A model generated the notes under the pieces. The model was not told the DNA's origin. It worked only from the letters and a program-made list of their open reading frames with translations, and ran no database searches. This document shows, piece after piece, positions 20,520-41,666 of a stretch of DNA of 64,000 bases. Source of the stretch: Gammaproteobacteria bacterium (GTDB lineage Bacteria; Pseudomonadota; Gammaproteobacteria; Pseudomonadales; Halieaceae). The stretch lies in the NCBI GenBank assembly GCA_024742415.1, contig JANSYN010000003.1, positions 1-64,000 on the forward strand, in the 5' to 3' direction. The position numbers and the translations under genes were made by a program. Each line of letters starts with the position of its first letter. Position 1 is the first letter of the stretch.

Positions 20520-22253
20520 ATGACCAAACAAAACAGCAGTAACCCGATGGCTTCCCTGGAAAACCCTTTTGCGGTGAAGGACGCGCGCGAGTTCAAGGTG
20601 CCCGGCCAGATCACAACCCAGCCCGGGCCCTACGAGGCTGCATTGGAGTCAGGCTGGGAACTACAGCAGCGGCCGTTCAGGGCGGCGGGCGTGAAGAATA
20701 TCCAGCGCCAGCACCAGAAGAACCGCATGACCATCTGGGAGCGCATCCGCTTCCTCAGCGACGAGGAGCCCCGGGTGTTGTACCAGAACTGGGGTCCCAA
20801 TCTTGATGGCGCCTCTCTCGTGACGGCAATTGTGAAGATCAACGGCAGGGATGTCGCGCTCTACGGGCACGATTTTACGGTCCGTGCCGGCTCAATGGAC
20901 GCGACCAACGGCGAGAAGCTCGCACGCCTCTTCGAGCTGGCGGCGAAGCAGCGAATACCCGTTGTAGGTATCAACGACAGTGCCGGCGCGTATATTCCCG
21001 CAGGCGTGGGCGGGCTTGACGGTTACTCGGAAGCCTTTGCCGCGTTGCGCAGAATATCCGGCATCGTGCCAAGCATCATGTGTATGTTCGGGTTCAATGC
21101 CGGTGGCGGCTCCTACCTGCCGCGTCAGGGCAGCTTCCTGATCCAGCCCAATGAAACCTTCTTCGGCCTGACCGGCCCCGGGGTCGTCAAATCTGTACTT
21201 GGCGAGGATGTCACCCCCGATGAACTGGGCGGTCCGGGCGTGCACAGCAAAACCGGTGTGACAGATTTTGTCGTCAAGGATGAAGTGGCGGCGCTGCGCA
21301 AGGTGCGCGAGTTACTCAACTACCTGCCGGGCCATAACGGCGAATTAGCACCTCATCAGCCGAGCTCAGACCCGATTGACCGGAAAACCTGGGACATTGA
21401 CCTGCTGCTCAAAAAAGCGTTTAACTCTCCCACCGGCTTCAATACCCCTGTCGATGTGACGATCCTGCTGCAGCAGCTTTGCGACCACGGGGATTTCCTC
21501 GAGGTACAGCCCGAACGCGCAAGAAATACCATCTGTGCACTGGGTCGTATGGGCGGTAATGTTATCGGCTTTGTTGCAAATAACTCCGCCGTGTCGTCTG
21601 GCCAGATTGATATCGATGCGGCCTACAAGAACGCTCGCTTCATTCGGTTTTGTAACCTCTACAACATTCCCATGATTTTCCTGGAAGATACCACGGGCTT
21701 CCTGCCCGGTCGCGAGCAGGAGAGCGGCGGTATTGTGCAGGCCGGTCGCGCCATGCTGGACGCGATTGTTGATTTGCGCACGCCGCGCTTTCTTGTCCTG
21801 GTGCGCAACGCTTTTGGCGGCGCCTATGCTGCGTTTAACAGCTTTCATGTCGGCGCGGATTTTGTGGTTGCCTTGCCGACCACCCGCGTGGCTGTAATGG
21901 GTCCCGCCGGCGTCGAGTACGTCTATAAGGATGAATTACGCAAGATTCGCGGCTCTGTCGCGGAGCGAATCGCGCAGGAAACCAGCGCGCAACAGCAGGC
22001 CGGGCTCAGCGCCGAAGAAGCAGCAAAAGCCGCGCGTGACCTGGTAGACCAGTGGGTCAAGTCAGAAGAGGCTCTGCTGGTGCAGCGCTACGAGCGTGAG
22101 CTGATGAATCCCAATGAGGCATTGAGCCTGGGCTCTGTCTCGCAGATCGTCATGCCCTCTGATTTGCGCCAGGTGTTGGCGGAAAACATGGCCTTCTACT
22201 TGCGACGCTATGAAGCGGCTCCGTTGCAATCCGTACAGCGTGAGTTCCACTAA
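20520..22253 (+). CDS. Acyl-CoA (probably propionyl-CoA) carboxylase, carboxyltransferase subunit
   Basis: Biotin-dependent carboxyltransferase (577 aa) moving CO2 from carboxybiotin to an acyl-CoA. Two crotonase-fold halves are visible: the first has [19 protein letters not shown] and [13 protein letters not shown], the second has [35 protein letters not shown] and [10 protein letters not shown]. The chain is about 60 residues longer than typical PccB. The residue after GGAY (about 437), usually Asp in propionyl-specific enzymes, is Ala here. The gene order (biotin subunit, epimerase, mutase downstream) argues for propionyl-CoA, giving methylmalonyl-CoA. Confidence 0.85.
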
Positions 22254-22270: not shown

Positions 22271-22354
22271 GTCGCCACTATGGTCGCCACTAAGGTCGCT
22301 ACAAAAGTTGCTACGAAAGTTGCTACGAAAGTTGCTACAAAGGTCGCCATACAA
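22271..22354. repeat. 12-bp tandem repeat array between carboxylase subunits
   Basis: Seven consecutive 12-bp units fit GTYGCYACNAAR (22271-22282, 22283-22294, 22295-22306, 22307-22318, 22319-22330, 22331-22342, 22343-22354); the last is degenerate and units four and five are identical. The array fills most of the 119-bp space. Read from ATG 22280 to TAA 22358-22360 it encodes a 26-residue VATK-repeat peptide, but there is no ribosome binding site. The multiple of three preserves that frame. It ends 19 bases before the next start. Confidence 0.9.
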
Positions 22355-22372
22355 CATTAAAGGAATCCGGGC

Positions 22373-25189
22373 GTGTCCAACGAATTTTACCTGAACAATC
22401 CGCTTATCCACCGCGATAGAAAACTCGCCAACAGCAGTTCCGCCTGGGTGCGCCAGTTTGACTGCACCCATATCAGGCCGCTGATAATCTGTCGTGGCCC
22501 TATTCGCAAAGAGGCGATGGACGTCTTCGACGAAATGGGCATCGATCATTACGGCATACTGTTGTCGGAAAAAGACTCCATTGTTTATCGCAATGCTATT
22601 GCGCCGGAGTTGCGCGCGTTAACCGATCCGGAGCGTATTCATCGCGTTCCCGATTACAGTGGCGCCAACAAGGAAGAGCGTGAACAGCGTATCGAGCAGA
22701 TTATCAGCATTGCACGCGACAACGACTACAACGCCATTTTTGCCGGCTATGGGTTTATGGCCGAGGATGAAAGCATGGTCGCCGCAATGGAAGGCGCCGG
22801 CCTGAATTTTATCGGCCCATGCTCACGCACTGTGCACGACGCCGGCCTGAAAGATGAAGCAAAGCGAACCGCGCTGAAATGTGGCGTATCGGTTACTCCG
22901 GGCATCGACAACGGTACAGCACTGACGCTACTGAAAGCCTACCCCGACGTCGCGGCGCTGCAGGCGTTGGTGGAGGAATATAAGCTGGTAATTCAGGGGC
23001 CAGCGCTGGATGACGAATCAGTCACACTCGAGGACAAGGCCGACCAGGTACTGGCGGCGTCCTATAAAGCAGGTATCGATCTGTACACCGTAGAGGCGTT
23101 GAGTGAAACGCTCACTGAAGCCGTGGAGCGCATCATGGCGCAGTATCCCGAGAACCGGGTGCGACTGAAGGCGATCAGCGGCGGTGGTGGTAAGGGCCAG
23201 CGCATCCTTGGGCTGGGCGAGGCGGCACGCACGCCGGAGCTGGTGCGTGAAATTCTCAACGAGGTTAAAACCACCGGCGTTGGAGACAACAAAAACGTGC
23301 TGGTGGAACTAAACATCGAGACCACCAGGCACCAGGAGATCCAGGTCATCGGCAACGGGCAGTGGTGCACCACGCTGGGCGGCAGGGATTGCTCTTTGCA
23401 GATGCATGAACAGAAACTGCTTGAAGTGTCTGTGACGGTAGAGTCATTGCAGCGTGCAATTGAAGAGGCTGACGCCAGCGGTCGGGAAACCGAAGCGGCT
23501 GTGTTGCGTCAGGATCTCAAGACACTGATTGCCATGGAGGCAGAGGCAGAATCGTTTGGCGAAGCTGTCGGCCTGGACTCCGTATCGACCTTTGAGTGCA
23601 TCGTCGATCGCGACAAGCATTTTTTTATGGAGATGAACACGCGGATACAGGTGGAACACCGTGTAACCGAACTGTGCTATTCGTTAAAGTTTAGCAACCC
23701 CGATAATCCTCAGGAGAGCTTTGTTGTAGAGTCACTGGTAGAGGCGATGGTGTTGCTCGCGGCGCACGCGGACAAACTTCCCAAGCCAGAGCGCCAGGTG
23801 CGACTGAACGACAGCGTGGAGGCCAGACTCAACGCAACCAACCAGGCGCTGCAGCCACATGCCGGAGGTGTTATCGAATCCTGGAGCGATGCTATCGAGG
23901 GTGAGATTCGCGATGACCAGGGTATCAGCTTGCACAACCCAGATACCGACGTCTTTATGAAGTACACGCTCGCCGGAGCGTATGATTCCAACATAGCGCT
24001 GCTGCTGACAGTGGGTGAAACACGGCTGGAGACTTACCAGAACATGGCCGAAACCATCCGCCAAACGCGTATGCGCGGCAAGGATCTGGCGACTAATCTC
24101 GAGTTTCACTATGGTCTCGTCAACTGGTTCATTGGCCAGAATATCAATGCGCGGCCAACGACCCGATTTATCGTGCCTTACTTGACGGCGGTGGGTGAAC
24201 TGAAGCAGCGCGCCAACGACATCGACCTGCCGTTTGCCTATGCTGCGCTGGGCAAGGTGGCGCTCGACGAACTGGATGGCGAGCCGAAAGCAGCCCTGGC
24301 GCAAACGCTGCAGCTGAAGGAGACGCTGTTGCTCAGGCCCCTGCAAGGTCTGCTCGAAGAGCCGCACATGCTGGCAGGCTGGCTAAGCATCAACCGAGAC
24401 TGCTGCACCGTCATTGATGGCAAAATCAGCTGGAACGAAAATCCGATTGAACTGCTGGCAGACACCTACCATTTTCTGAATATGGATTATCTGGGTGGCG
24501 ACAAACCGCCCGCGGCCTCGATGATCTGGGATCACGACGACGCCATCCTGCAGGAAGCGCTGGCCTTCTATAACGAATTGAATAATCGCCTGTCCTGTGA
24601 AGACTGGGTAGAGTTGTGCACGCTGCTGGCGCAGGATGAGGCGCCGGCAGGTTTTAGTGCCGAGCTTTGGCAGCAGGTGCGCGGTGCGCACCTTGGATTC
24701 CAGGCGGGTGCCGACATTCTTGCCGTGTTGCCGAGTATCGCGCAGTTCACCGGGTTTTATGACCTGACCGTGAACGAGGATCTCACCATTCACATTCCTG
24801 AGCGCCTGATGGCCAAAGAGTTGCAAGATGCCATGGCCAAGGTGCTGGTGCCACCTCCGGTAGCAAATTCAGACGAAATTCTCGCCGAGAGCGGCGGCAT
24901 GTTCTACGGTCGTGAAAGCCCGGAGCATGATACCTATGTCAGTGAGGGTGATCACTTCAATGCCGGTGATCCCTTGTTTATCGTCGAAGTCATGAAGATG
25001 TTCAACAAGGTATATGCGCCATTTTCAGGCACGATCAAGGAAGTGCTTGTCGATACCGACGGTACCATCATTTCCAAGGGCCAACCGATTTTCAAAATCG
25101 TACCCGATGAGATTGTAGAAGAGGAATCGGCAGACGATATTGCGGCGCGCCGCAAAGCCGTCACTGCCGAATTCCTGCAACAGGTGTAA
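22373..25189 (+). CDS. Acyl-CoA carboxylase biotin subunit (biotin carboxylase + biotin carrier), long form
   Basis: A 938-aa fusion of an ATP-grasp biotin carboxylase and a C-terminal biotin carrier. The first half contains the carboxylase N-terminal Rossmann region, the ATP-binding glycine loop (KAISGGGGKGQRI) and MEMNTRIQVEHRVTE, which holds the catalytic Glu/Arg of the family. The carrier domain ends the chain with EVMKMF and the biotinyl Lys near residue 875. Ordinary PccA is about 660-700 aa; here a long insertion precedes the glycine loop and a helical linker precedes the carrier. The GTG start at 22373 has AGGA at 22361-22364. It partners the carboxyltransferase just upstream. Confidence 0.87.
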   Translation: MSNEFYLNNPLIHRDRKLANSSSAWVRQFDCTHIRPLIICRGPIRKEAMDVFDEMGIDHYGILLSEKDSIVYRNAIAPELRALTDPERIHRVPDYSGANKEEREQRIEQIISIARDNDYNAIFAGYGFMAEDESMVAAMEGAGLNFIGPCSRTVHDAGLKDEAKRTALKCGVSVTPGIDNGTALTLLKAYPDVAALQALVEEYKLVIQGPALDDESVTLEDKADQVLAASYKAGIDLYTVEALSETLTEAVERIMAQYPENRVRLKAISGGGGKGQRILGLGEAARTPELVREILNEVKTTGVGDNKNVLVELNIETTRHQEIQVIGNGQWCTTLGGRDCSLQMHEQKLLEVSVTVESLQRAIEEADASGRETEAAVLRQDLKTLIAMEAEAESFGEAVGLDSVSTFECIVDRDKHFFMEMNTRIQVEHRVTELCYSLKFSNPDNPQESFVVESLVEAMVLLAAHADKLPKPERQVRLNDSVEARLNATNQALQPHAGGVIESWSDAIEGEIRDDQGISLHNPDTDVFMKYTLAGAYDSNIALLLTVGETRLETYQNMAETIRQTRMRGKDLATNLEFHYGLVNWFIGQNINARPTTRFIVPYLTAVGELKQRANDIDLPFAYAALGKVALDELDGEPKAALAQTLQLKETLLLRPLQGLLEEPHMLAGWLSINRDCCTVIDGKISWNENPIELLADTYHFLNMDYLGGDKPPAASMIWDHDDAILQEALAFYNELNNRLSCEDWVELCTLLAQDEAPAGFSAELWQQVRGAHLGFQAGADILAVLPSIAQFTGFYDLTVNEDLTIHIPERLMAKELQDAMAKVLVPPPVANSDEILAESGGMFYGRESPEHDTYVSEGDHFNAGDPLFIVEVMKMFNKVYAPFSGTIKEVLVDTDGTIISKGQPIFKIVPDEIVEEESADDIAARRKAVTAEFLQQV

Positions 25190-25201
25190 CCAGGAGCCAG
25201 T

Positions 25202-25612
25202 ATGATTACTGCATTAGATCACATTGCCATTGCCGTTCCCGACCTGCAAAAAGCCATTGAGCGATTTGTGGAGGATTTCCAGCTGCCCCTGGGGGGCACC
25301 GAAGATGTGGTGGAGGCCAAGACCAAGGCCGCCTTTTTACCACTTCCACCGACCAGTATCGAACTGATTCATCCCCTGAACGATGAGGGTCCGGTGAAGA
25401 CCTATCTCGAGAAGAGAGGCGGTGGCATCCATCACTTGTGCTTTCGCTCGGATGACATCGAGGCAGACGTGGCACGCCTGAAAGAAAAGGGCTATCAGTT
25501 TCTCTCCGATGCTCCCTCGCCGGGTGCACACAACTCGCTGGTGATTTTCATTCACCCGAAAAGCGCCGACGGCGTGCTGATTGAACTCAATCAACCTGCG
25601 GATGAGCACTGA
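25202..25612 (+). CDS. mce: Methylmalonyl-CoA epimerase
   Basis: Vicinal-oxygen-chelate metalloenzyme (136 aa) interconverting (2S)- and (2R)-methylmalonyl-CoA; bacterial homologues in the ethylmalonyl-CoA pathway also epimerise ethylmalonyl-CoA. The N-terminal [11 protein letters not shown] supplies the first metal His, [13 protein letters not shown] is followed by [15 protein letters not shown] (second His), and VLIELNQP carries the metal Glu. AGGAG (25192-25196) precedes the ATG. It lies between the carboxylase and the mutase, as the reaction order predicts. Confidence 0.93.
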
Positions 25613-25622
25613 GGTCAGGCGC

Positions 25623-27779
25623 ATGAGCGACAACATCTACGACAAATCCACTGCGACGCCGGCAAGTTGGGCCGAGTTGGCGGCCCGGCAGCTCAAGGGC
25701 AAGAGCCCGGAGGAACTGACCTGGCACACGGCCGAAGACATACCCGTGAGACCCCTGTATACCGCGGCCGACATGGAGCGGCTGGAGTACGCCGACACCA
25801 TGCCTGGTATGTCGCCGTATATTCGCGGCCCACAGGCGACGATGTATGCAGGGCGGCCCTGGACCATTCGTCAGTACGCTGGTTTTTCCACCGCTGAAGA
25901 GTCCAATGCCTTTTACCGCAAGGCGCTGGCAGCCGGTGGGCAGGGCGTCTCTGTTGCCTTTGACCTGGCCACGCACCGGGGTTACGACTCGGACCACCCG
26001 CGCGTTACCGGCGATGTGGGCAAGGCCGGCGTGGCGATCGACTCCGTTGAAGATATGAAGATCCTGTTCGACGGTATTCCACTGGACAAGGTCTCTGTAT
26101 CGATGACCATGAACGGCGCGGTATTGCCGGTGCTGGCCGGGTACATCGTTGCCGCTGAGGAGCAGGGCGTCGCGCAGGAGCAGTTGGCTGGAACAATACA
26201 GAACGACATTCTGAAAGAGTTCATGGTGCGTAACACCTATATTTATCCGCCCGCGCCCAGCATGAAAATCATTGGCGACATCATCGCGTACTGTTCCGCC
26301 AATATGCCGCGGTTCAATACGATATCCATCTCGGGCTACCATATTCAGGAAGCCGGCGCGAACGCCGCCCTTGAGCTGGCTTACACGCTTGCGGACGGCA
26401 AGGAGTATATCCGTACCGCCATAGCAGCGGGCCTGAATATTGACGATTTCGCGCCGCGCTTGTCTTTTTTCTGGGGCATTGGCATGAATTTCTACATGGA
26501 AATTGCCAAATTGCGGGCAGCGCGTTTGTTGTGGGCAAGGATCGTAGCCGAGTTTGAGCCGAAGAATCCCAAGAGCTCGATGTTGCGCACCCATAGCCAA
26601 ACGTCAGGTTGGTCGCTGACAGAGCAGGACCCATACAACAACGTCGTACGCACCACCATAGAGGCAATGGCGGCGGTGTTTGGCGGCACACAATCACTGC
26701 ACACCAACGCTCTGGACGAAGCCATTGCGCTGCCAACCGAGTTTTCGTCGCGCATCGCGCGCAATACCCAGTTGATCATCCAGGAAGAGTCTGGCATCAC
26801 CAAGGTGGTCGATCCCTGGGGCGGCTCCTACATGATGGAGAATCTCACGCAGGACATCGCAGACAAAGCCTGGGAACTCATCGCCGAAGTGGAAGAGGCC
26901 GGCGGCATGGCCAAGGCCATTGAGACCGGCATGCCGAAGTTGCGTATCGAGGAAGCGGCTGCGAAAAAGCAGGCGCGCATCGATCGGGGCGAGGATGTCA
27001 TTGTGGGTGTGAACAAGTATAAACTGGACATCGAGGAAGACGTCGATATTCTGCAGATCGATAACGCTGCGGTGCGTGATGCACAGCTTGCTCGCCTGGC
27101 GAGCCTGCGGGAGGCGCGGGATGAACCCGCGGTAGAAGCCATCCTCGAAGACATCTACCAGTGCGCCGTGAGCGGCGAGGGCAACCTGTTGGCCCTGGCC
27201 ATTGAAGCTACGCGGCGTCGCGCTACCGTCGGCGAGATTTCTTTTGCGATGGAGCGTGAGTTCGGGCGTTTCAATGCGCAATCGCAGACAGTATCGGGTG
27301 TGTATGGTTCAGCCTTTCAGGAAGACGAGGACTGGCAGGGTATCAGTAAAGACATCGACAGTTTTGTAGAACAGTATGGCAGAAGGCCCAGAATGCTCGT
27401 GTGCAAGATGGGTCAAGACGGCCATGATCGTGGCGCGAAGGTCGTAGCGACGGCGTTTGCCGATGTGGGATTTGATATCGACCTTTCCCCCATGTTTTCA
27501 ACTCCCGAGGAGGTCGCCAGGCAGGCGATCGAAAACGACGTGCATGTTGTGGGCGCATCGTCGCTGGCTGCCGGCCACAAGACGCTGGTCCCGGAACTGG
27601 TCAGGGAGCTGCGCAAGCAGGGGGCTGACGAGATAGTAGTGATTGCCGGGGGCGTCATTCCGCGCCAGGATTATGATTTTCTCTATGAGGCTGGCGTGAA
27701 GTGTATTTTTGGCCCGGGCACGCCGATACCCAAGTGTGCCAGAGAAGTGCTTGACGCCGTGAAGGAGGCCCAGGGCTAG
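25623..27779 (+). CDS. scpA: Methylmalonyl-CoA mutase, homodimeric type
   Basis: Adenosylcobalamin enzyme converting (2R)-methylmalonyl-CoA to succinyl-CoA (718 aa). The TIM-barrel part holds [16 protein letters not shown] and [14 protein letters not shown]. The C-terminal B12 domain has DGHDRG (about 599-604; His is the lower cobalt ligand), ASSLAAGH and IAGGVIP. Length fits a single-chain catalytic subunit. The start is set at ATG 25623 with GAGGT 7 bases upstream overlapping the epimerase stop; the frame extends further up to 25581 inside the epimerase gene. It is followed by its chaperone MeaB. Confidence 0.95.
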
Positions 27780-27784
27780 GTAGC

Positions 27785-27805
27785 GCACAGCCACACCGGC
27801 TGTGC
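27785..27805. other. Intercistronic hairpin between mutase and meaB
   Basis: GCACAGCC (27785-27792) and GGCTGTGC (27798-27805) form a perfect 8-bp stem with a 5-nt loop, directly after the mutase stop. There is no T-run, so it may act in mRNA stability or partial attenuation rather than full termination. Confidence 0.5.
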
Positions 27806-27827
27806 ATGACTTGCCGATAATGCGCGT

Positions 27828-28787
27828 ATGAGCCAGTTTGACCTGCAAGCGTTACTCGATGGCAATCGGCGGGCGCTTGCCAAGGCGATAACGCTGGTAG
27901 AGAGCAAACTTGAGGCTCACCGCGAGCAGGCGCAGGGCATACTCGAGCAGATTTTGCCGCACACCGGCGGCAGCATTCGCATCGGTATTACCGGTGTTCC
28001 CGGTGTCGGGAAGTCCACTTTCATTGAAGCCTTCGGGCTGTATCTGATAGCGCAGGGTAAACGCGTGGCGGTGCTTGCCGTCGACCCCAGTTCACCGATT
28101 GCCGGTGGTTCCATTCTGGGTGATAAAACACGGATGGAGGAGTTGTCCCGGAGGGAGGAGGCCTATATCAGGCCCTCACCCGCAGAGGGCACGCTGGGCG
28201 GTGTCGCGCAAAAAACTCGTGAAACCATGCTGCTGTGCGAAGCGGCAGGGTATGACGTGATTCTGGTGGAAACGGTCGGTGTTGGTCAGTCCGAGTACCA
28301 GGTCGCCGGCATGGTGGATTTTTTCATGGTACTCATGCTGCCCGGCGGCGGCGATGAACTCCAGGGCATCAAGAAGGGCATCATGGAACTGGCCGATGCG
28401 CTGGTGATTAACAAGGCCGATGGCGAGAGCCTGGCGCTGGCCACCATGACCCAACGGCAGTACACCAGCGCAATGAACCTGCTGCGTCACACCAGCTTCT
28501 GGACGCCGCGCGTAATGACCTGCTCGGCCCAGGAGGGCACCAACATTCCCGCGCTATGGGGCATGCTGGTGGACTACTACTTTCAATCACTGCAAGAGAA
28601 CTGGTTCCAGACCAAGCGAGCGCAGCAAAACCGTGACTGGATGCACCAGCTGGTGAACGAAATGCTGCTGTTGAAGCTGTCACAAAATGCGCAGGTGCGG
28701 CAGTTGATTCCCGAACTGGAGCGCGCAGTAGAGCAACACAGCATGACACCCTATGCTGCGGCCCGGACGCTCATAGACTTGCTGTAG
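27828..28787 (+). CDS. meaB: Methylmalonyl-CoA mutase-associated GTPase MeaB
   Basis: G3E-family GTPase (319 aa) that gates adenosylcobalamin loading and protects the mutase from inactivation. Walker A GVPGVGKS (about 56-63), VDPSSPIAGGSILGDKTRM, the switch ETVGVGQSE and the base-specificity motif NKAD are all intact. It follows the mutase by 48 bases, which pairs it with the enzyme at 25623-27779. A second, more divergent paralogue is encoded beside the other mutase at 30277-31257. Confidence 0.94.
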   Translation: MSQFDLQALLDGNRRALAKAITLVESKLEAHREQAQGILEQILPHTGGSIRIGITGVPGVGKSTFIEAFGLYLIAQGKRVAVLAVDPSSPIAGGSILGDKTRMEELSRREEAYIRPSPAEGTLGGVAQKTRETMLLCEAAGYDVILVETVGVGQSEYQVAGMVDFFMVLMLPGGGDELQGIKKGIMELADALVINKADGESLALATMTQRQYTSAMNLLRHTSFWTPRVMTCSAQEGTNIPALWGMLVDYYFQSLQENWFQTKRAQQNRDWMHQLVNEMLLLKLSQNAQVRQLIPELERAVEQHSMTPYAAARTLIDLL

Positions 28788-28796
28788 GTGGCCACG

Positions 28797-29114
28797 ATGC
28801 GCTTCTACCCGCTTGAAAAACTGATCAACCTGCACGATAACTACACACGCCAGTTCAAGATCGACCATTTGCACCTGCTGCTACTCCAGCGCGGCACAGA
28901 CCGCTACCTGGTTGAAGCATCCTGCCCGCACCGGGAGCATCCATTGAATGCAGGTTCCATCGCCCACGGTGTGATCGAGTGTGCCCTGCATGGGTACCGC
29001 TTCAGCCTGGAGGATGGCCGCGTGCTGTATCGCACCGAGGAGCCGTGCCGGGCGCTGCGCACGTTTCCGATCGTTTACGAAGGCAACGAGTTGGGCACGC
29101 TGCTCGACGTATAA
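28797..29114 (+). CDS. Small Rieske [2Fe-2S] protein
   Basis: A 105-aa stand-alone Rieske domain. The cluster ligands are Cys-Pro-His (ASCPHREHPL) and Cys-Ala-Leu-His (ECALHGYRF), the standard CxH...CxxH arrangement. There is no signal peptide, so it is cytosolic and resembles oxygenase-type ferredoxins. AGGTGG (28786-28791) precedes ATG 28797; a GTG directly after the meaB stop (28788) would add three residues. Its redox partner is unknown; the last position in the mutase operon is unusual. Confidence 0.83.
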   Translation: MRFYPLEKLINLHDNYTRQFKIDHLHLLLLQRGTDRYLVEASCPHREHPLNAGSIAHGVIECALHGYRFSLEDGRVLYRTEEPCRALRTFPIVYEGNELGTLLDV

Positions 29115-29198: not shown

Positions 29199-30248
29199 TT
29201 ACAAGCCATAGGCCTGACGCAGTTCCGGGTCCTTTTCGGCGATCATCGTGGCCAGATCTACCATGACCTTGCACTGTTTCCACGAGGCGTCGTCCTGCAT
29301 TTTTCCGTCAACCATGACGGCACCACTGCCATCGGGCAGTGCCTCAAGCACCCGCTTGGCCCATGCGACCTCATCGGGCGGCGGGCTGAATACGCGCTTG
29401 GCGATGTCGATCTGGCTGGGATGCAATGACCAGGCGCCCACGCAGCCCATCAGGAACGCATTGCGAAACTGATCCTCACAACCGACGGGGTCGTCGATAG
29501 CGCCGAACGGGCCGTAGAAGGGCAGAGCGCCAACGGCCACGCAGGCGTCGACCATTCTGCCCATGGTGTAATGCCAAAGGTCCTGGGCGTGCGTTGCCCG
29601 GGGCGCTTCCGGATTGTCGGTGTTGGGGTCATCGCGCACGAGATAGCCAGGGTGGCCGCCGCCAATACGGGTGGTTTTCATGCGCCGTGAGGCGGCAAGA
29701 TCAGCAGGGCCAAGGCTCATGCCCTGAATGCGCGGACTGGCATTTGCAATTTCCTCGACATTGGCCACACCGAGGGCTGTCTCAAGCAGGCAGTGCAACT
29801 GGATGGGGCGTTGTAGACCGGCGCGCGCCTCGAGCTGCGCCAGCAGTTGGTCGGCAAAGTGGATATCCCATGCCCCTTGTATTTTCGGCAGCATGATGAC
29901 GTCGACCTTGTCGCCCACCTCGCCGACGATGCGTGTCAGGTCGTCGAGGAACCAGGGGCTGTCCAGGCTGTTGACGCGCGTCCAGAGCTGGGTGTCACCG
30001 AAGTCGTTGTCCCTGGCGATCTGAATGAATCCTTCGCGTGCCGCTTCTTTGTTGTCGATGGCGATGGCGTCTTCGAGATTGCCCAGGATGATATCTACTT
30101 TGCTGGCAATGCCAGGCGCTTTCTCAACCATCTTCGGATTGCTGGGGTCAAAAAAATGAATCATCCGGGAGGGGCGTACAGGTACCTCCCTAAGCGGCTC
30201 GGGGGCACCCAGTGCCAGTGGTGTGAAGAAATCTCTGGGGCTGCGCAT
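29199..30248 (-). CDS. mcl: HpcH/HpaI-CitE family lyase, probable L-malyl-CoA / beta-methylmalyl-CoA lyase
   Basis: A 349-aa TIM-barrel CoA lyase. The family Mg-ligand segments are present ([15 protein letters not shown] for the Glu, [11 protein letters not shown] for the Asp), as are GPFGAIDD, the C-terminal [17 protein letters not shown] and the [16 protein letters not shown] strand. The context (mesaconyl-CoA hydratase and ethylmalonyl-CoA mutase upstream) points to cleavage of beta-methylmalyl-CoA to glyoxylate and propionyl-CoA, as in Mcl1. The N-terminus ([10 protein letters not shown] instead of RSxLxxPGSNP) is unlike standard malyl-CoA lyases, so another substrate remains possible. 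Last gene of its operon. Confidence 0.78.
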
Positions 30249-30276
30249 GGTAATCTCCTTGGCTGGTGTTCCTGAA

Positions 30277-31257
30277 CTAGTGTGTAATGCTCAAGCGCTG
30301 CAAGCATGCCGAGTATTGCTCTAGCGGGTTTGCACTGTGAGCGCTGAATTCCTTGATAAAGGCCGGTGCACCACCGAGCTGCAGCACACCTTTTTTGCCA
30401 TACTCGTCTTCGATGCAGCGCAGCAGCCAGCGGGCCTGGTGTTCGCGGCGTCGCACCTGTAAACGCTGTGTCGCAAGCAGGTGCTGGTGATGTGCGGCTA
30501 GGGTGTTGCCCAGCGGTGCGATGCCTGATCGTCGGGTGGCGCTAGTGGCCAGCACAGGCACCGTCCAGCCGCCGTCCGGGTGGTTGGGGTTGAGCACCCC
30601 GGACAGTTCAGCCAGCGTGCGTGTCGCTACGGCGCCCATATCCTCTTTATTGACTACCACGACATGCGGGACTTCCAGAATGCCCGCCTTGAGAAACTGA
30701 ATACTGTCGCCAGAGCCCGGTTGTGCAACGAAGCAGGTCGTATCGCAGCTACTGGCGATATCGACCTCGCGCTGACCCACGCCGACTGTTTCAACGATAA
30801 CAATGTCGAAACAACACAGCATGACCAGGCTCATCGGCCACACCTCCTGGCTCAATCCGCCGAACTGCCCGCGGTTGGACAGCGAGCGGATAAAGACGTG
30901 CTGGTTATCGACCTCGCTGGTCATGCGCAGCCTGTCGCCCAGCAGCGCGCCGCCGGATACCGGGCTTGAAGGATCGACAGCAATAACGCCAACCCGTTGT
31001 TTGTGCTCCAGCCAGTGACTGATCAATGCCGCGGTAAGCGATGATTTGCCGGCACCAGGTGGGCCGGTGATCCCGATCATTTGCGCCGTGCTGACACTGT
31101 AATGGGGTAGCAGCTGCGTCATCAGCGCGGTGGCTTGTGTGCGCGATACGGCCCGCTGATCGTCCAGCAGGTTCAGCGCAGCTGCCACTGCGGGGCGCTG
31201 ACCCGCGCGTACACCCTCGGCCAACGCTTGCAGGTCTGCCGTCACACCAGGGGTCAT
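30277..31257 (-). CDS. Second MeaB/ArgK-like GTPase, paired with ethylmalonyl-CoA mutase
   Basis: A G3E-family GTPase (326 aa), paralogous to MeaB. Walker A GPPGAGKS (65-72), [28 protein letters not shown] and NKED are recognisable, but the region between them differs from MeaB (for example [18 protein letters not shown]). It starts 4 bases after the mutase stop, so it is co-translated with it. It is most simply the dedicated cofactor-loading chaperone of that mutase. A frame extension to 31287 overlaps the mutase gene and is not needed. Confidence 0.85.
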
Positions 31258-31261
31258 TACC

Positions 31262-33262
31262 TCAGGCGGCCGTGGCGGGCAGCCCATGGGACTGGCGGAT
31301 AATGTCGACCATGCGGTGCATGATCTGGTTCATATCGACATCTTTTGGGGTAAACACGGCTTTGACACCGCGCTCCTGCAACTGCTGCGCGTCGTCGCTG
31401 GGAATGATGCCACCAATAACCAGCGGTACATCGTCTGCATTGAGTTTGCGCATTTCCTGTTGGATATCCTCAACCAGCTCCAGGTGGCTGCCAGAGAGCA
31501 CCGACAAGCCTATGAGGTGTACGCCTTCTTCCTGGGCAGCCCTGGCAATATGCGCCGGTGTCAGTCGGATGCCTTCGTAGACGACTTCAAAACCGGCATC
31601 ACGCCCCTTCACGGCGATCTGTTCGGCACCGTTGCTGTGGCCATCAAGGCCCGGCTTGCCAATGAGCAAGCGCAGCGGCCGCCCCAGTTCTGCGCTGGTA
31701 GCCAATACCCTGGCGCGCACCGCTGCCATGGCGTCTTCATCGCCGCCGCTCGCTGTGCTGATATCAACGCCGGTCGGTGCGCGGTACTCGCCAAACACCC
31801 CGCGGAGCACCTCACTCCATTCGCCGGTGGTGACGCCAGCGCGGGCACATTCGATAGAGGCGGGCATGACGTTGTCGCCATTGACGGCGGCATGCCTGAG
31901 TGCATCCAGCGCGGCGGCAACCCGTTGGCTGTCGCGTTGCTGACGGAATGCCAGCAGCGATTCTATCTGCTCGCGCTCGGCGCGCTCATCCACTTTCATA
32001 ATGCCTGAATCGCCGCCGGCGGTGAGCGGTGACTCGGCGGTTTTTTCAAAGCAATTGACACCAACGATTTTCAGTGCGCCGCTTTCTATATCACGCATGC
32101 GGCGCGTGTGGCTTTGCACCAGCTCACGCTTCACATAGCCGTTGTCCACACATTGCACCATGCCGCCTTGCTCTGCCACGCGCGCCATTTCTGCGCGCGC
32201 GCCGGCGATCAGTTCCTGTACCTTCGCCTCAATAACGGTGGAGCCTTCGAACAGATCGTCGTATTCAAGCAGGTCTGTTTCCAGGGCGAGAACCTGCTGC
32301 ATACGTAGCGCCCATTGCTGGTCCCACGGGCGCGGCAGGCCAAGGGCCTCATTCCAGGCGGGCAACTGGATAGCGCGGGCACGCGCGTCCCTGGACAGCG
32401 TAACTGCGAGCATTTCGAGCACGATGCGCTGCACGTTGTTCTCTGGTTGTGCTTCGGTCAGCCCCAGTGAATTCACCTGCACGCCGTAACGAAAGCGCCG
32501 TGCCTTGGGGTCTTCAACACCGTAGCGTTGCTGGGCGATCTCGTCCCACATACGGGTAAATGCACGCATTTTGCAGGTTTCTTCTACAAAGCGGATACCG
32601 GCATTCACGAAGAAGGAGATGCGCGCAACGACATCCTGAAAGCGTTCCGGGGCAATTTGCCCGGACGCCTGTACCGCATCGAGAATCGCAGTGGCCGTAC
32701 ACAGGGCATAGGCTAACTCCTGCGTCGGCGTGGCACCGGCCTCCTGCAGGTGATAACTGCAGATGTTGGTCGGGTTCCACCTGGGGATATTCGCAACCGT
32801 ATAAGAGATTAAATCCGTGGTCAGTCGTACCGATGGCTCGGGAGGAAAAATATAGGTTCCGCGTGACAGGTATTCCTTGATGACGTCGTTTTGCGTCGTT
32901 CCCTGCAGCGTGGCAGGGTCAACCCCCTGTTTTTCTGCAACGGCAACGTATAGCGCCAACAGCCAGGGAGCCGTGGCGTTGATCGTCATGGAGGTGTTCA
33001 TTTGATCCAGCGGAATCTGGTCGAACAGCAGTTCCATGTCGCCGATGTGGTCGATCGGGACACCGACCTTACCCACTTCGCCGCGTGCCAGCGGATGGTC
33101 CGAGTCGTAGCCGGTTTGGGTTGGCAGGTCGAAGGCGACAGACAGGCCCGTTTGGCCTTTGCCAAGATTGGTGCGATACAGCGCATTGGATGCGCGGGCA
33201 GACGAATGCCCGGAGTAGGTACGCATCAGCCATGGCCTTTCGCGCGTGCTGTCCTTGCTCAT
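31262..33262 (-). CDS. ecm: Ethylmalonyl-CoA mutase (MeaA/Ecm)
   Basis: Adenosylcobalamin mutase (666 aa) converting (2R)-ethylmalonyl-CoA to (2S)-methylsuccinyl-CoA, the hallmark step of the ethylmalonyl-CoA pathway. It matches the MeaA subfamily rather than methylmalonyl-CoA mutase: RTYSGHSSARASNALY, VAFDLPTQTGYDSDHP, MTINATAPWLLALY, GLTEAQPENNVQRI and LPRPWDQQWALRM. The B12 domain has DGHSNG (about 540-545), LSVLSGSH and IGGIIP. The ATG overlaps the hydratase stop by 4 bases (ATGA). Neighbours mcd and mch catalyse the next two steps. Confidence 0.93.
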   Translation of the reverse strand: MSKDSTRERPWLMRTYSGHSSARASNALYRTNLGKGQTGLSVAFDLPTQTGYDSDHPLARGEVGKVGVPIDHIGDMELLFDQIPLDQMNTSMTINATAPWLLALYVAVAEKQGVDPATLQGTTQNDVIKEYLSRGTYIFPPEPSVRLTTDLISYTVANIPRWNPTNICSYHLQEAGATPTQELAYALCTATAILDAVQASGQIAPERFQDVVARISFFVNAGIRFVEETCKMRAFTRMWDEIAQQRYGVEDPKARRFRYGVQVNSLGLTEAQPENNVQRIVLEMLAVTLSRDARARAIQLPAWNEALGLPRPWDQQWALRMQQVLALETDLLEYDDLFEGSTVIEAKVQELIAGARAEMARVAEQGGMVQCVDNGYVKRELVQSHTRRMRDIESGALKIVGVNCFEKTAESPLTAGGDSGIMKVDERAEREQIESLLAFRQQRDSQRVAAALDALRHAAVNGDNVMPASIECARAGVTTGEWSEVLRGVFGEYRAPTGVDISTASGGDEDAMAAVRARVLATSAELGRPLRLLIGKPGLDGHSNGAEQIAVKGRDAGFEVVYEGIRLTPAHIARAAQEEGVHLIGLSVLSGSHLELVEDIQQEMRKLNADDVPLVIGGIIPSDDAQQLQERGVKAVFTPKDVDMNQIMHRMVDIIRQSHGLPATAA

Positions 33263-34443
33263 GTTGAGGCTCCCGGGGCTGCTCGACGGCGCACAAGCAG
33301 GCGCCGTTCTATCTCAAATATCTTATCGCTTATTTTCTCTTTGCCCAGGCTGCGCTTGGTATCTTCCTTGATGAACAGGTCTGCACCGTGGGTGTCCAGC
33401 GCTTGTGCCGCGCTGATGTTCTTGACGCCAATGAGCTGTTGCGTCACCACGCCGAAATCAGGCGCCTGCGCCAGTACCTGCGTTGCGACGATGCGCGTCA
33501 GTGCGCCGATGGTGTCGCCGGCAAACGCCGGTTGCGTGTGATACCCCTCGGTGAAGCCCAATTCCCAAAGTGCGTGTTCGCTAACGTCTCGACTGGCCAG
33601 ACCGTCCAGCCATGCGAACACCAGGCCGCCATAAACTATCGGTTCTCCGCTCATCTTGCCTGACAGGCTGCTGGAAAATACACGATCAAAATGCAGGGGA
33701 TGGCTGTTGCCTACGCCAAAGGTCAGGGCCATGTGCTCCTCGGTGATCGTGCGTCCGTTGGCATGCACGATGACATCGCCAGCGGAGAAATCCTCAAAAT
33801 AGGTGTTGGGTCCTGTCAGACCTTGTGCAGGTGCTCCGCTCAGCGGAAGGTGTATTTGCGCGCTGGTGTCACCGGGGAATTCAATAGTCACAGCGGCCGC
33901 GGGCGTGGTCGGTAGCCGGTCGCCACGCCAGGCGACAAAAATCTTGCGTTCGTACTGGAGAACAACGTCATCATTCTGGTTGATGCTTACCGTGCGAATG
34001 CGTGCGATGCCGGGTTTGTCTGCGCCGCGATCCTTGCGTTCGAGCACTTTGGTGAATGCGCGCAACGTATCGCCCGGGTACACCGGACGCAGAAACTCAA
34101 CATTGTAGTAGCCCAGGTTTGCGATGGCCTTTTCCGAATCATTCTGTACGCCCAGTGACAAAGTGACGTTGAACACCATCTGGGGCGACGCCGGCAGATC
34201 GGGGAAGCCACAGTCGCGCGCGTATTGGCTGTTCAGGTAGAGCGGGTTGCATTGCATGAAGGTGCGGGCAAAGTCGAGCATATTGCTGGCGGTGAATGTG
34301 AAGCCCCTGGGGTGTTCAAACACCTGGCCTGGAGACAGTTCATCCAGATACCGTCCATATTGCGGCTTGCGCGCGGCCTCGATGTTCAGCGGGGCGTCGG
34401 GTGCCAGTTCGTTTTGCGGGTCGAGTGTCAGTGACAGGCTCAT
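33259..34443 (-). CDS. mch: Mesaconyl-CoA hydratase (double MaoC/hotdog)
   Basis: A 394-aa protein with two MaoC-like hotdog domains, adding water to mesaconyl-C1-CoA to give beta-methylmalyl-CoA. The first domain runs from YLDELSPGQVFEHP through SPQMVFNVTLSLG, the second from YFEDFSAGDVIVHANGRTI through FGVGNSHPLHFD and GGLVFAWLDG; the NSHPLHFD His is the usual hydratase site. It is somewhat longer than described homologues (about 345 aa), mainly at the C-terminus. The start at ATG 34443 removes a 50-residue extension overlapping the dehydrogenase gene. It overlaps ecm by 4 bases. Confidence 0.87.
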   Translation of the reverse strand: MSLSLTLDPQNELAPDAPLNIEAARKPQYGRYLDELSPGQVFEHPRGFTFTASNMLDFARTFMQCNPLYLNSQYARDCGFPDLPASPQMVFNVTLSLGVQNDSEKAIANLGYYNVEFLRPVYPGDTLRAFTKVLERKDRGADKPGIARIRTVSINQNDDVVLQYERKIFVAWRGDRLPTTPAAAVTIEFPGDTSAQIHLPLSGAPAQGLTGPNTYFEDFSAGDVIVHANGRTITEEHMALTFGVGNSHPLHFDRVFSSSLSGKMSGEPIVYGGLVFAWLDGLASRDVSEHALWELGFTEGYHTQPAFAGDTIGALTRIVATQVLAQAPDFGVVTQQLIGVKNISAAQALDTHGADLFIKEDTKRSLGKEKISDKIFEIERRLLVRRRAAPGAST

Positions 34444-34453
34444 CGGGACGTCC

Positions 34454-36133
34454 TCAGTCGATGGTTTCCAGCAATGCGCGCGTGATGACCTTGAGTGCCA
34501 GTGTTTCTTCTGCCCCTTCAAAAATCGACAGCACGCGGGCATCAACGAAGTAGCGGCTGACAGGGGTTTCCTCCGCATAACCCATGCCGCCATGAATTTG
34601 CAGCGCTTCGCGCGTCAGCCACTCTGCGGCCCTGCCGGCGAACAGTTTAGCGGCGCTGGCCTCCATGTCGCCTGCGCCCTGATCCATCATGTCGGCCACG
34701 TCATAGGTGATCTGGCGACAAGCCAGTATCTGTGCCGCCATGCGCGCAAGCTTGCTGCGCGTCAGTGGGTATTTGCCGATGACCTGCCCGAACACCTGGC
34801 GCTCACAGGCGTAGGACAGCGAGCGCTCAAAGGCCGCGCGCATGACGCCAACCGCGCGCGCGGCGGTTTGAATTCTGCCGCCGGCAAAGCCTGCCATCGC
34901 ATAGTAAAAACCCTTGCCTTCACCGCCTTGCTCACCTAGCACATGGCTGTCGGGAACAAAAAACTCGTCAAAGAAAAGCTCGAATGAGTGCATGCCGCGA
35001 TAACCCAGGGTGGCTATCGCGCGTCCGCCGAGCTTGCCGCCTGTAGCCTGTTGTACGTCAAAAGCGTGGCCGCTGTGCGAGGGTTTTTCTACCAGGAACA
35101 TTGTCAGACCCTTGTGGCCAAGGGCCGGATCCGGATCGGTGCGTGCCAGCACCAGCAACAAACCGGCCTTGCCGCCGAAGGTGCACCAGGTTTTGGCACC
35201 ATCAAGCTGCCAGCCGCCATCCACGCGGGTCGCCTTGAGTTTTACGCCAGCGACATCAGAGCCGTAGTTGGGTTCTGTCACGGCCACCGCACACAGCGGC
35301 TCGCCAACGGCGAGTTGCGGCAGCCAGTGGCGCTTCTGCGCCTCAGTGCCGCCCTTGAGCAGTGCGCGTGCGAGAATCTCTGGCCGAGTGATCAAACTGC
35401 CCGCAGCGCCGAGTGATCCGCGTGACAGTTCCTCCGTCACGACGATCATACCCAGCGTATCCTCTTCGTCGTTTTCCTGCAGGCCACCGTAGCTTTCGGG
35501 AATTGACAGGCCGAACATGCCCATTTCTTTCAGCGGTTCGAGAATGTCGTCCGGGATGTCCAGATCCTGGCGATGGATCTCCTCCGCCAGCGGCATGACA
35601 ACATCGTCGGCAAAGCGGTGGAAGGTGTCGCGCATCATGGTGTGGTGTTCACTGAGCAGGTCGGGCCCCAGGTCACCGCCACACTCAAGCAGGGCTTGCC
35701 CGATGCGATCGAGGTTTGCGGCAGACAATTGGGCGGACGTCACCGGCTCATGCGGCGCCAGACACGCGGAGATGGCCGTGTCGTCCAGGCCGAAATCGCC
35801 CGGTCTGGCGCGCAAACGATTTGCGGTGTTGATGATTGCCTCTGCGGTGAACAGCCCGGCGAGGTCAGCCGTCAGGGTGACACCTGTGGCAGATGCCGAG
35901 ACCCTGGCGGCGTGGTTCAGGCTAAAACGCGCTGCGGTGCATTCGGCCCAGCACACTGCGATCTCGTAGGAGACCAGCTGCAATTCATCGAGCCTGGCAG
36001 GATCGGTGCGCCCGGCAACGGTTGCGCTGGTTTTCAGGTGAGTCAGGGCCTGGTGTATCAGCCCCTGTACCGCCGTCAAAGCGGCACCGGCCTGATCGAG
36101 CATAGGCTCGTCAGTGGAAATGAAATCGCTCAT
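34454..36133 (-). CDS. mcd: (2S)-Methylsuccinyl-CoA dehydrogenase
   Basis: FAD-dependent acyl-CoA dehydrogenase (559 aa) oxidising methylsuccinyl-CoA to mesaconyl-CoA. A helical N-terminal extension of about 160 residues precedes the ordinary core; this extension and length are typical of Mcd and not of short-chain dehydrogenases. Core motifs are VTEPNYGSDVAGVKL, TWCTFGGKAGLLLVLA, YRGMHSFELFFDEFFVP, QIHGGMGYAEE and SIFEGAEE. It is the first gene of the minus-strand operon, 10 bases before mch. ATG 36133 is chosen; an upstream ATG at 36193 would cover the operator palindrome region. Confidence 0.9.
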   Translation of the reverse strand: MSDFISTDEPMLDQAGAALTAVQGLIHQALTHLKTSATVAGRTDPARLDELQLVSYEIAVCWAECTAARFSLNHAARVSASATGVTLTADLAGLFTAEAIINTANRLRARPGDFGLDDTAISACLAPHEPVTSAQLSAANLDRIGQALLECGGDLGPDLLSEHHTMMRDTFHRFADDVVMPLAEEIHRQDLDIPDDILEPLKEMGMFGLSIPESYGGLQENDEEDTLGMIVVTEELSRGSLGAAGSLITRPEILARALLKGGTEAQKRHWLPQLAVGEPLCAVAVTEPNYGSDVAGVKLKATRVDGGWQLDGAKTWCTFGGKAGLLLVLARTDPDPALGHKGLTMFLVEKPSHSGHAFDVQQATGGKLGGRAIATLGYRGMHSFELFFDEFFVPDSHVLGEQGGEGKGFYYAMAGFAGGRIQTAARAVGVMRAAFERSLSYACERQVFGQVIGKYPLTRSKLARMAAQILACRQITYDVADMMDQGAGDMEASAAKLFAGRAAEWLTREALQIHGGMGYAEETPVSRYFVDARVLSIFEGAEETLALKVITRALLETID

Positions 36134-36198
36134 GATGTGTCCTGCTGCGAGTAGCGGTTTGGGCCCAGGGGCAAGAACGTCTGCGCTGGTCACTCCGC

Positions 36199-36219
36199 TT
36201 GATTGGTTTAATCAGTCAA
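36199..36219. promoter_or_regulatory. 21-bp palindrome between mcd and the CitE-like gene, candidate operator
   Basis: TTGATTGGTTTAATCAGTCAA matches its own reverse complement at 16 of 21 positions, centred at 36209, 66 bases from the mcd start. Size and TTGAC/GTCAA-like ends resemble TetR-type operators seen near acyl-CoA metabolism genes. Location in the divergent promoter space suggests joint control of mcd and the plus-strand lyase. Confidence 0.5.
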
Positions 36220-36241
36220 ACCGACATTTTACGGCTTCACT

Positions 36242-36257
36242 GTGTTGAAAACAACAC
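36242..36257. promoter_or_regulatory. Perfect inverted repeat GTGTTG-N4-CAACAC
   Basis: Arms GTGTTG (36242-36247) and CAACAC (36252-36257) flank AAAA. It lies 22 bases downstream of the 21-bp palindrome, in the same divergent region, and could be a second regulator site or a leader hairpin. Confidence 0.4.
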
Positions 36258-36382
36258 CGACGCCCTGCCTGACGGGGCTGCCAGGGCTCAAAAACGTGAC
36301 TGCAAAAGTGTCGGGACATTCTGTATCCTTGGCGCCCGATTTCGCCGTTGTGCGTACCTGTTCACCACCCTGGAGATCACTT

Positions 36383-37255
36383 ATGGATATTCGACCGCGT
36401 CGATCATTGCTCTACATGCCCGGTTCAAACCCCAGAGCCCTGGAAAAGGCCCGCCAGTTGCCGGCCGACGGCCTGATTCTGGATATGGAAGATGCGGTAG
36501 CGCCGGATGCGAAGCCGTTGGCACGCGAACAGATCGGCGCAGCGCTGGCCGCTGGCGGCTATGGCTCGCGCGAGATCATGGTGCGTATCAATGCACTGGC
36601 CACGGAGTGGGGCGCCGACGATATTCGCGCACTGGGCCAGTTCGAGACCGCACCGGATGCTGTTCTGGTGCCCAAGATAGACCAGCCACAGGATGTTGTG
36701 GATGCAGTACTGGCGCTTGATGCAGCCGGTGTGCCCGGGTCTGTCGACGTCTGGATCATGGCCGAAACGCCGCAATGCATTTTGAACATCAATGCCATTG
36801 CCGGCGCGCATAAACGCCTGCGGGGCATCGTGATGGGCACGTCAGACTTGTCCAAAGACACGCGTGTACAACACACTCCCGATCGCCTGGGTTTTATCGC
36901 GGCGTTGAATATGTGCGTCTACGCGGCACGGGCCTATGGCCTGCAAATCATTGATGGAGTGCAACTTGACCTGGAAGACGATGCGCTGTTACAGGCTTCC
37001 TGCCAGCAGGGACGGGAGCTTGGCTTTGACGGCAAAAGCCTTATCCACCCCAGGCAGATCGAAGCGGCCAACCGCAGCTTTGGACCCGATGCTGCTGAGA
37101 TCGCGTCAGCCAAAGAGATCATCGCCGGCTTCGAAGAGGCACAGGCACAGGGCAAGGGCGTGGTCGTGATCAAGGGGCGACTGGTCGAAAACCTGCACGT
37201 CGAGGAAGCGCAGCGTCAGCTCGCGCTGGCGGCGGCGATTGAGGCGATGCAGTAG
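36383..37255 (+). CDS. CitE-like protein, probable (3S)-malyl-CoA thioesterase (Mcl2-type)
   Basis: A 290-aa HpcH/HpaI-CitE family protein. RSLLYMPGSNPRALEKAR, ILDMEDAVAPDAK, IMAETPQCILNI (Mg Glu) and MGTSDLSKD (Mg Asp) with GKSLIHPRQIEAAN are present. The family includes malyl-CoA lyases, citramalyl-CoA lyases and the malyl-CoA thioesterase Mcl2, which completes the ethylmalonyl-CoA pathway by releasing malate. Context favours the last, but sequence alone does not decide. GGAG (36372-36375) precedes ATG 36383. It is divergent from mcd. Confidence 0.82.
   Translation: MDIRPRRSLLYMPGSNPRALEKARQLPADGLILDMEDAVAPDAKPLAREQIGAALAAGGYGSREIMVRINALATEWGADDIRALGQFETAPDAVLVPKIDQPQDVVDAVLALDAAGVPGSVDVWIMAETPQCILNINAIAGAHKRLRGIVMGTSDLSKDTRVQHTPDRLGFIAALNMCVYAARAYGLQIIDGVQLDLEDDALLQASCQQGRELGFDGKSLIHPRQIEAANRSFGPDAAEIASAKEIIAGFEEAQAQGKGVVVIKGRLVENLHVEEAQRQLALAAAIEAMQ

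Positions 37256-39604: not shown

Positions 39605-41666
<2,062 letters not shown>

Follow-up and report, generated by a model that had tools for sequence, protein, structure and literature searches.

The window analysed here, a stretch of 64,000 nucleotides of contig JANSYN010000003.1 from a Halioglobus-like member of the Halieaceae (Gammaproteobacteria), carries on its minus strand (36193-29199) a tight operon for a (2S)-methylsuccinyl-CoA dehydrogenase (Mcd), a MaoC-MaoC hydratase, an ethylmalonyl-CoA mutase (Ecm), a MeaB GTPase (MeaB2) and an Mcl-type lyase, with a CitE-like gene diverging from it on the plus strand (Table 1). Consecutive genes are separated by 10 bases (Mcd and hydratase) or 28 bases (MeaB2 and lyase), or overlap by 4 bases (hydratase and Ecm) or 26 bases (Ecm and MeaB2). 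An initial annotation had named this set an ethylmalonyl-CoA pathway operon; reading frames and domain searches recovered all six genes at the same positions, and its enzyme identities and gammaproteobacterial setting proved right. It had not connected the operon with a propionyl-CoA-to-succinyl-CoA island that lies directly upstream on the plus strand (20520-29114) and encodes the carboxyltransferase (CT) and biotin carboxylase (BC) of an acyl-CoA carboxylase, an epimerase, a methylmalonyl-CoA mutase (MCM) and a first MeaB GTPase (MeaB1).

Table 1. Features of the operon and the adjacent island (window coordinates), and lyase candidates at related loci (locus coordinates)
Feature	Position	Strand	Basis
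mcd, (2S)-methylsuccinyl-CoA dehydrogenase type, long N-terminal extension	34454..36193	-	PDB matches, conserved residues
mch-like MaoC-MaoC hydratase, putative mesaconyl-C1-CoA hydratase	33259..34443	-	Pfam PF19315/PF01575
ecm/meaA, B12-dependent ethylmalonyl-CoA mutase	31262..33262	-	identity, motifs, tree
MeaB-like GTPase 2 (MeaB2), mutase chaperone	30277..31287	-	PF03308 239.6 bits
Mcl-type lyase, putative beta-methylmalyl-CoA lyase, 4l7z/6kin type	29199..30248	-	PDB profile scores
CitE/Mcl2-like HpcH/HpaI protein, divergent	36242..37255 (start 36242/36332)	+	PF03328 149.8 bits; best PDB 5ugr 144.6 bits
Acyl-CoA carboxylase CT subunit, candidate propionyl/butyryl-CoA carboxylase	20520..22253	+	PF01039 359.5 bits; PDB 1x0u 310.8, 1vrg 309.9 bits
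938-aa biotin carboxylase + biotin carrier domain (BC), divergent	22373..25189	+	domain search
Methylmalonyl-/ethylmalonyl-CoA epimerase	25202..25612	+	TIGR03081 133.6 bits (cut-off 114.95); Glyoxalase_4
Methylmalonyl-CoA mutase (MCM)	25623..27779	+	NF006944 1291.7 bits
MeaB GTPase 1 (MeaB1)	27828..28787	+	NF006958 475.4 bits
Small Rieske ferredoxin	28788..29114	+	PF00355 38.4 bits
~480-aa protein beside Mcd	L111:5757-7184, L113:7410-8837, L115:6800-8236, L119:7867-9315, L117:4372-5811, L112:11042-12481

The mutase of the operon is 62-66% identical to the meaA-annotated proteins of Ruegeria TM1040, where meaA lies two genes from ccrA, and of Paracoccus, as well as to unannotated proteins of Methylobacterium and Streptomyces, and 37.5-38.7% identical to most proteins listed as scpA methylmalonyl-CoA mutase. 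When eight stretches chosen by hand were set against the MCM of the window, Ecm motifs such as YSGHSS, CSYHLQEAGA, GVQVNSLGLT, QLPAWNEA and DGHSNG were the same, or nearly so, in alphaproteobacterial Ecm proteins and in those linked to crotonyl-CoA carboxylase/reductase (Ccr), and unlike the window MCM; the Ecm proteins of families f29 and f22 deviate in two motifs (YAGHTN and FDLATQCGYSSD). On these sequence criteria the mutase is assigned to the ethylmalonyl-CoA mutase subclass, and a grouping with some other mutase, which the initial annotation had named as a way to be wrong, does not apply, as Ecm groups with the Ccr-linked Ecm proteins both in its motifs and in the tree described below. 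MeaB2 scores 236.5 bits, slightly below the TIGR00750 cut-off of 240.75, and follows Ecm in every Halieaceae locus long enough to show the position. We also noted that second replicons of Leptospira interrogans (NZ_CP020413.2 6910-8874 and NZ_CP043881.1 67467-69431) encode a mutase 57.7% identical to the window Ecm, against about 38% for methylmalonyl-CoA mutases.

The functional residues of the dehydrogenase PdMCD are named in print (PMC5798300). By counting along the alignment by hand, we found that the window Mcd keeps the catalytic glutamate and the three substrate-binding arginines (Glu535 and Arg252/376/421 in PdMCD numbering) as Glu559, Arg270, Arg399 and Arg446 of its open reading frame, and that Glu380 of PdMCD corresponds to Ser403. 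In the longest frame, the acyl-CoA dehydrogenase domains do not begin before residue 181. The protein scores 608.6 bits to PDB 8ciw, deposited as a (2S)-methylsuccinyl-CoA dehydrogenase and presumably from Pseudomonas migulae, and 313 bits to 6es9.

The hydratase and the lyase match the expected families, and neither is close to the usual solved relatives. The hydratase, whose start codon we chose by hand (the longest frame begins at 34593), gave 76.3 bits to MC_hydratase and MaoC matches in two stretches; its low scores to the solved structures 4e3e (128.6 bits) and 8hgn (112.7 bits) mark it as a divergent Mch. The same hydratase type stands beside Mcd and Ecm in Ccr-bearing genomes (L051, L061, L117), a context that supports a role as mesaconyl-CoA hydratase. 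The lyase scores 508.7 bits to 4l7z and 504.7 bits to 6kin, against 218.8 bits to 5ugr and 209.1 bits to 4l9y; we take 4l7z, 6kin and 4l9y to be the Chloroflexus, Roseiflexus and Rhodobacter enzymes. Neither protein came near the models of the itaconate/methylsuccinate cluster, RipB/Ich (hydratase 122.5 bits, cut-off 340) and RipC/Ccl (lyase 115.5 bits, cut-off 375). The closeness of the lyase to 4l7z and 6kin would suit a part of the 3-hydroxypropionate bi-cycle that leads from glyoxylate and propionyl-CoA towards pyruvate; this reading is barely plausible and mostly refuted, for it runs the other way from Mcd and Ecm, and mesaconyl-CoA C1-C4 transferase (2-methylfumaryl-CoA isomerase, Mct, TIGR04253), the one further bi-cycle enzyme searched for, gave no match in the host at E<=1e-40. 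The divergent CitE-like gene probably encodes a malyl-CoA thioesterase or a second lyase.

The gene order of the operon recurs in related Halieaceae; Halioglobus japonicus (L039), one of the closest named relatives, has proteins 73% (Mcd), 81% (Ecm) and 90% (Mcl) identical to those of the host, and its genome, which shares its coordinates with G001, is placed in the host's genus. In four pairs of related Halieaceae, in several of which synonymous change is near saturation, the ratio of nonsynonymous to synonymous substitution (dN/dS) was 0.046-0.053 for Ecm, 0.036-0.095 for Mcd, 0.067-0.11 for the hydratase, 0.013-0.035 for the lyase and 0.09-0.108 for MeaB2. The rows for MeaB1 in pairs with L040 and in L042/L046, and for MCM in L042/L046, were set aside because nonsynonymous differences per site (pN) of 0.45-0.51 showed that a paralogue had been picked. 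The shared order and the strong purifying selection argue that the operon is not a chance assembly, and the low dN/dS means that the Ecm mutase is not a relic. We saw no sign of a very recent transfer: overall and third-position GC content of the operon resemble those of the island.

Constraint on Ecm and MeaB2 bears directly on the idea that the operon serves methylsuccinate or mesaconate catabolism, with entry at methylsuccinyl-CoA and Ecm as a leftover. Such a route without Ecm probably exists elsewhere, since many relatives of Mcd adjoin a protein close to Mct and show no Ecm in the part of the locus that was read. For our operon it is nonetheless quite improbable, given that constraint, the absence of a CoA transferase from the operon, the Mct result in the host given above, and a quick tree (40 rows of 50 intended) in which Ecm-linked Mcd proteins fall outside a 15-row branch of Mcd proteins with no Ecm in the stretch read, eight of them from Burkholderiales. 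The loci in question are L067:11520-12818, L122:10926-12134 and 16 loci clustered with L067. Their CaiB-type neighbour gave 525-546 bits to TIGR04253 (cut-off 725), and nine of the 17 clustered loci that have it belong to Burkholderiales. A gene of similar type (530 bits, same cut-off) occurs in a same-genus genome that is 74% complete (G003:C239:6771-7967, L127); the other 17 genomes searched showed nothing like it.

Next, we asked whether the host has Ccr, which the initial annotation had not seen in the window and suggested might be encoded elsewhere. A genome-wide search, for which Caulobacter served as the positive control, gave a best TIGR01751 match of 76.6 bits against a cut-off of 378.55 in the host (G000), and none of 18 relatives, host included, exceeded the cut-off; nor was there a match at E<=1e-40 in any of the 24 Ecm-positive Halieaceae. 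Assembly gaps are not the cause in two single-contig genomes (G039, G077) that hold Mcd, hydratase, Ecm and MeaB and no Ccr. Across 77 Mcd-bearing genomes (27 of 27 plus 50 of 61 named), Ccr exceeded the cut-off in nine and fell below it in one more (G249). Where present, it follows Mcd-Ecm-MeaB (L048, L049, L052, L053, L093, L118), lies between hydratase and Ecm (L061) or precedes a candidate lyase, Mcd, hydratase and Ecm (L117).

A glyoxylate shunt, in turn, is present in the host. Absence of isocitrate lyase, which a TIGR01346 score below the cut-off (about 100 bits) might have indicated, was rejected: the match is an isocitrate lyase of another type, with 905.5 bits to 6g1o, presumably from Pseudomonas aeruginosa. 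Malate synthase G is there too, at 1148.9 bits. In a survey of 56 rows, nine of which duplicate genomes already in the set, 35 of 38 distinct Ccr-less genomes had a TIGR01346 match (E<=1e-20), the exceptions being G283, G298 and G137, as had four of nine Ccr-bearing ones, G249 being counted as Ccr-bearing. In all but three matched genomes the score lay under the family cut-off and was taken to denote the type that we checked in the host. Malate synthase G was found in 34 of 46 genomes and in none of seven named Ccr-bearing ones. These contrasts are descriptive, as the genomes are related, and three genomes (G073, G023, G126), whose Ecm lies outside the stretches read, were counted on Mcd and hydratase. 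Since no Ccr was found and both shunt enzymes are encoded, the operon does not represent the acetate pathway of the textbooks. By the refutation test that the initial annotation had set itself, the acetate-assimilation reading falls, and of its pathway headline the enzymes stand and the classical pathway does not; the variant route that it had offered as an alternative to Ccr encoded elsewhere is now favoured. A standard pathway with an unrecognised or unassembled Ccr would account for the downstream enzymes and for an Ecm so close to Ccr-linked ones, but the Halieaceae-wide negative, the two single-contig genomes with a related operon and the glyoxylate-shunt genes of the host largely refute it and leave it very unlikely.

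To place the Ccr-less operons, we built an Ecm tree that combined two proteins of the window with 26 of 30 loci; L178 and L180 were left out for want of an open reading frame, and L117 and L025 as too short. The Ccr-less operons fall in three places: Halieaceae with family f32, adjoining the Ccr-bearing L048, L049 and L052 and also L050, whose genome lay outside the Ccr search (15-row branch, 96/91); family f13 with the Ccr-bearing L051 and L053 (98/94); and families f29/f22 (100/98), adjoining the Ccr-bearing L118 (99/100). At least three changes of Ccr state are needed on this tree, and a single clade of the 17 Ccr-less rows, a group named after the tree had been seen and on a tree with a long outgroup branch, was rejected (approximately unbiased test, p-AU 1e-90). 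Because Ccr-less operons occupy three places, the tree suggests that Ccr was repeatedly lost or by-passed.

For each step that leads from (2S)-ethylmalonyl-CoA to glyoxylate and succinyl-CoA, the window holds a gene of a fitting family, all of them side by side; without Ccr, another source of ethylmalonyl-CoA is needed. We propose that the ethylmalonyl-CoA pathway encoded here is probably a Ccr-free version fed with C4 units, which a biotin-dependent carboxylase would supply from butyryl-CoA. The adjacent CT and BC, whose main job is probably propionyl-CoA carboxylation, would convert butyryl-CoA to (2S)-ethylmalonyl-CoA; the epimerase would turn this into the (2R) form, Ecm with MeaB2 would rearrange ethylmalonyl-CoA to (2S)-methylsuccinyl-CoA, Mcd would oxidize that to mesaconyl-C1-CoA, the hydratase would form beta-methylmalyl-CoA and Mcl would cleave it to glyoxylate and propionyl-CoA. 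Propionyl-CoA would then reach succinyl-CoA through the same carboxylase, the epimerase and MCM, and malate synthase G would join glyoxylate with acetyl-CoA, so that on balance butyryl-CoA would yield C4 acids with no cleavage to acetyl-CoA, alongside the glyoxylate shunt. Carboxylation of butyryl-CoA by a propionyl-CoA-carboxylase-like enzyme gives the (2S) form, which the epimerase can use, and it is the simplest source of ethylmalonyl-CoA. In a study of Rhodospirillum rubrum, growth on butyrate needed most other genes of the ethylmalonyl-CoA pathway and not ccr, and the authors cite rates of 32.2 versus 358 umol/h/mg for its propionyl-CoA carboxylase acting on butyryl-CoA (PMC7238569); an acyl-CoA carboxylase of T. 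fusca likewise accepts butyryl-CoA (PMC7835884). The idea of carboxylase entry is already in print for R. rubrum.

The position of the operon fits carboxylase entry. Of the 24 Ecm-positive Halieaceae, 15 have BC and Ecm within 9 kb of each other on one contig and eight have them on different contigs; in one Ecm-positive genome (G011) the 938-aa BC was not found. A genome without an Ecm match (G282, L170) runs from CT-BC-MCM-MeaB1 through some other short frames to RoxY and RoxA and has no operon in between; in two further genomes (G004, L171; G285, L174) the operon and the CitE-like gene occupy the space between MeaB1 and RoxY-RoxA. RoxY, RoxA and PurB are presumed labels for the window frames 37996-38505, 38477-39595 and 39605-41101. 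In the Ecm-negative G371 (L167) the island is present with other genes beyond, and in G367 and G006 (L166, L169), two of three same-genus genomes scored as lacking Ecm, contigs break inside the operon. The linkage is no proof of the entry step, as the lyase product propionyl-CoA needs the island anyway. Between MeaB1 and the lyase lies the small Rieske-type ferredoxin, which also stands beside MeaB1 in several relatives. The BC of the island is unusually long and divergent, with a best PDB score of 112 bits.

Several observations weigh against a carboxylase-fed route. The 938-aa BC occurs in 133 of 140 Halieaceae genomes and all 28 genera, and Ecm (E<=1e-170) in 24 genomes and four genera, so that the carboxylase, near-universal with or without Ecm, is not dedicated to the ethylmalonyl-CoA route. 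The window CT is, by PDB comparison, related to propionyl-CoA carboxylase and mmdA, its substrate being putative, and the host has four further PF01039 genes, one with an internal stop. A dedicated butyryl-CoA carboxylase could not be read from the CT pocket: the residue that we matched to D422 of ScPccB, by motif rather than by alignment, is alanine in Ecm-positive and Ecm-negative relatives alike (nine loci) and so uninformative. In Mcd, the methyl-pocket residues Ala285 and Phe287 of PdMCD are replaced by Val303 and Val305; 8ciw has Ile/Ile. Around other Ccr-less operons (L111-L116, L119), tblastn over 13-19 kb gave a single weak epimerase-like match (45 bits, L114) and none to CT, BC or a true MCM. 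The epimerase model TIGR03081 exceeded its cut-off in 15 of 21 genomes searched and not in G364 (an Ecm-positive member of the Halieaceae), G023 and G065 (f13), or G039, G077 and G137 (f29); at the G364 locus (L172) a gap of 183 bases takes the place of the epimerase between BC and MCM.

The main rival is metabolite repair, by which the operon would dispose of ethylmalonyl-CoA formed accidentally when propionyl- or acetyl-CoA carboxylase acts on butyryl-CoA, with the same chemistry at low flux and no anaplerotic role. It accords with the missing Ccr and the glyoxylate shunt, and it has a precedent in ECHDC1, which is reported to handle ethyl- and methylmalonyl-CoA side products by decarboxylation in mammals (PMC6717113). 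We nevertheless regard it as unlikely, because a five-gene, B12-dependent oxidative route is a costly way to repair and Ecm was not found in at least 109 of the 133 family genomes that bear the carboxylase.

In families f29, f22 and f12, a protein of about 480 residues stands beside Mcd at the expected place of Mcl (Table 1). The L111 protein matches DUF6986 (PF22484) with 591 bits and HpcH_HpaI with 27.4 bits (cut-off 25), and those of L113, L115 and L119 align to it at 92, 72 and 77%; the assignment for L112 and L117 is by place and length only. We consider the DUF6986 protein a candidate non-orthologous beta-methylmalyl-CoA lyase; its AlphaFold model (mean pLDDT, the predicted local distance difference test score, 47.9) was too poor for structural comparison.

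Taken more broadly, three gammaproteobacterial lineages may run a Ccr-free pathway fed from butyryl-CoA by a biotin-dependent acyl-CoA carboxylase; this would be a separate anaplerotic route for fatty acids from C4 upwards, beside the glyoxylate shunt, with non-homologous swaps of the lyase (Mcl or DUF6986). We hold this wider reading tentatively, as somewhat more doubtful than likely; it is weakened because no carboxylase was found near the operon in the other two lineages (13-19 kb stretches) and several genomes have no epimerase over the cut-off. The host is well equipped, and other Ccr-less lineages may use another carboxylase or epimerase.

Elsewhere in the window, a 716-aa protein (13631-15781) has AcetylCoA_hyd_C (PF13336) as its sole recognised domain and no NCBIfam match at E<=1e-20; it is possibly a large CoA transferase.

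The ethylmalonyl-CoA pathway is usually identified by its key enzyme Ccr, and organisms such as these would escape a genome survey that relied on it. If carboxylase entry is true, marine bacteria would have, beside the glyoxylate shunt, a second, ATP-driven assimilation of butyryl-CoA that keeps its carbon and adds CO2, and there would be natural Ccr-free systems in which to test the dispensability of R. rubrum ccr on butyrate; the same enzyme module serves in synthetic CO2-fixation cycles. In the open-licence PMC literature we found no paper joining the ethylmalonyl-CoA pathway with Halieaceae or Halioglobus; a gammaproteobacterial methanotroph is reported to be without the pathway (PMC11507031), and Methyloceanibacter to have its genes, ccr included (PMC6417678).

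Compared with known systems, the host shares with the 3-hydroxypropionate bi-cycle of Chloroflexus the lyase type and a related hydratase family, and differs from it in lacking an Mct match and in having Ecm and Mcd. The pseudomonad itaconate/methylsuccinate cluster (PMC12290011) also has a methylsuccinyl-CoA dehydrogenase, whereas our operon has an Ecm/MeaB pair and no CoA transferase. As in the ethylmalonyl-CoA pathway of Rhodobacter, Methylobacterium, Paracoccus and Streptomyces, the host encodes Ecm with the same or nearly the same motifs, Mcd, a putative hydratase of the mesaconyl-CoA type, a putative lyase of the beta-methylmalyl-CoA type, an epimerase, a propionyl-CoA-carboxylase-like enzyme and MCM; unlike the classical pathway, it combines these with no detected Ccr, a glyoxylate shunt, a divergent Mch, another lyase type and an operon inserted beside a carboxylase-MCM island. 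R. rubrum has ccr and needs it on acetate, whereas no Ccr was found in the host or in Ecm-positive family members; the proposal made for R. rubrum, that propionyl-CoA carboxylase carboxylates butyryl-CoA and the ordinary downstream enzymes take over (PMC7238569), is the one that we put forward here from the genes.

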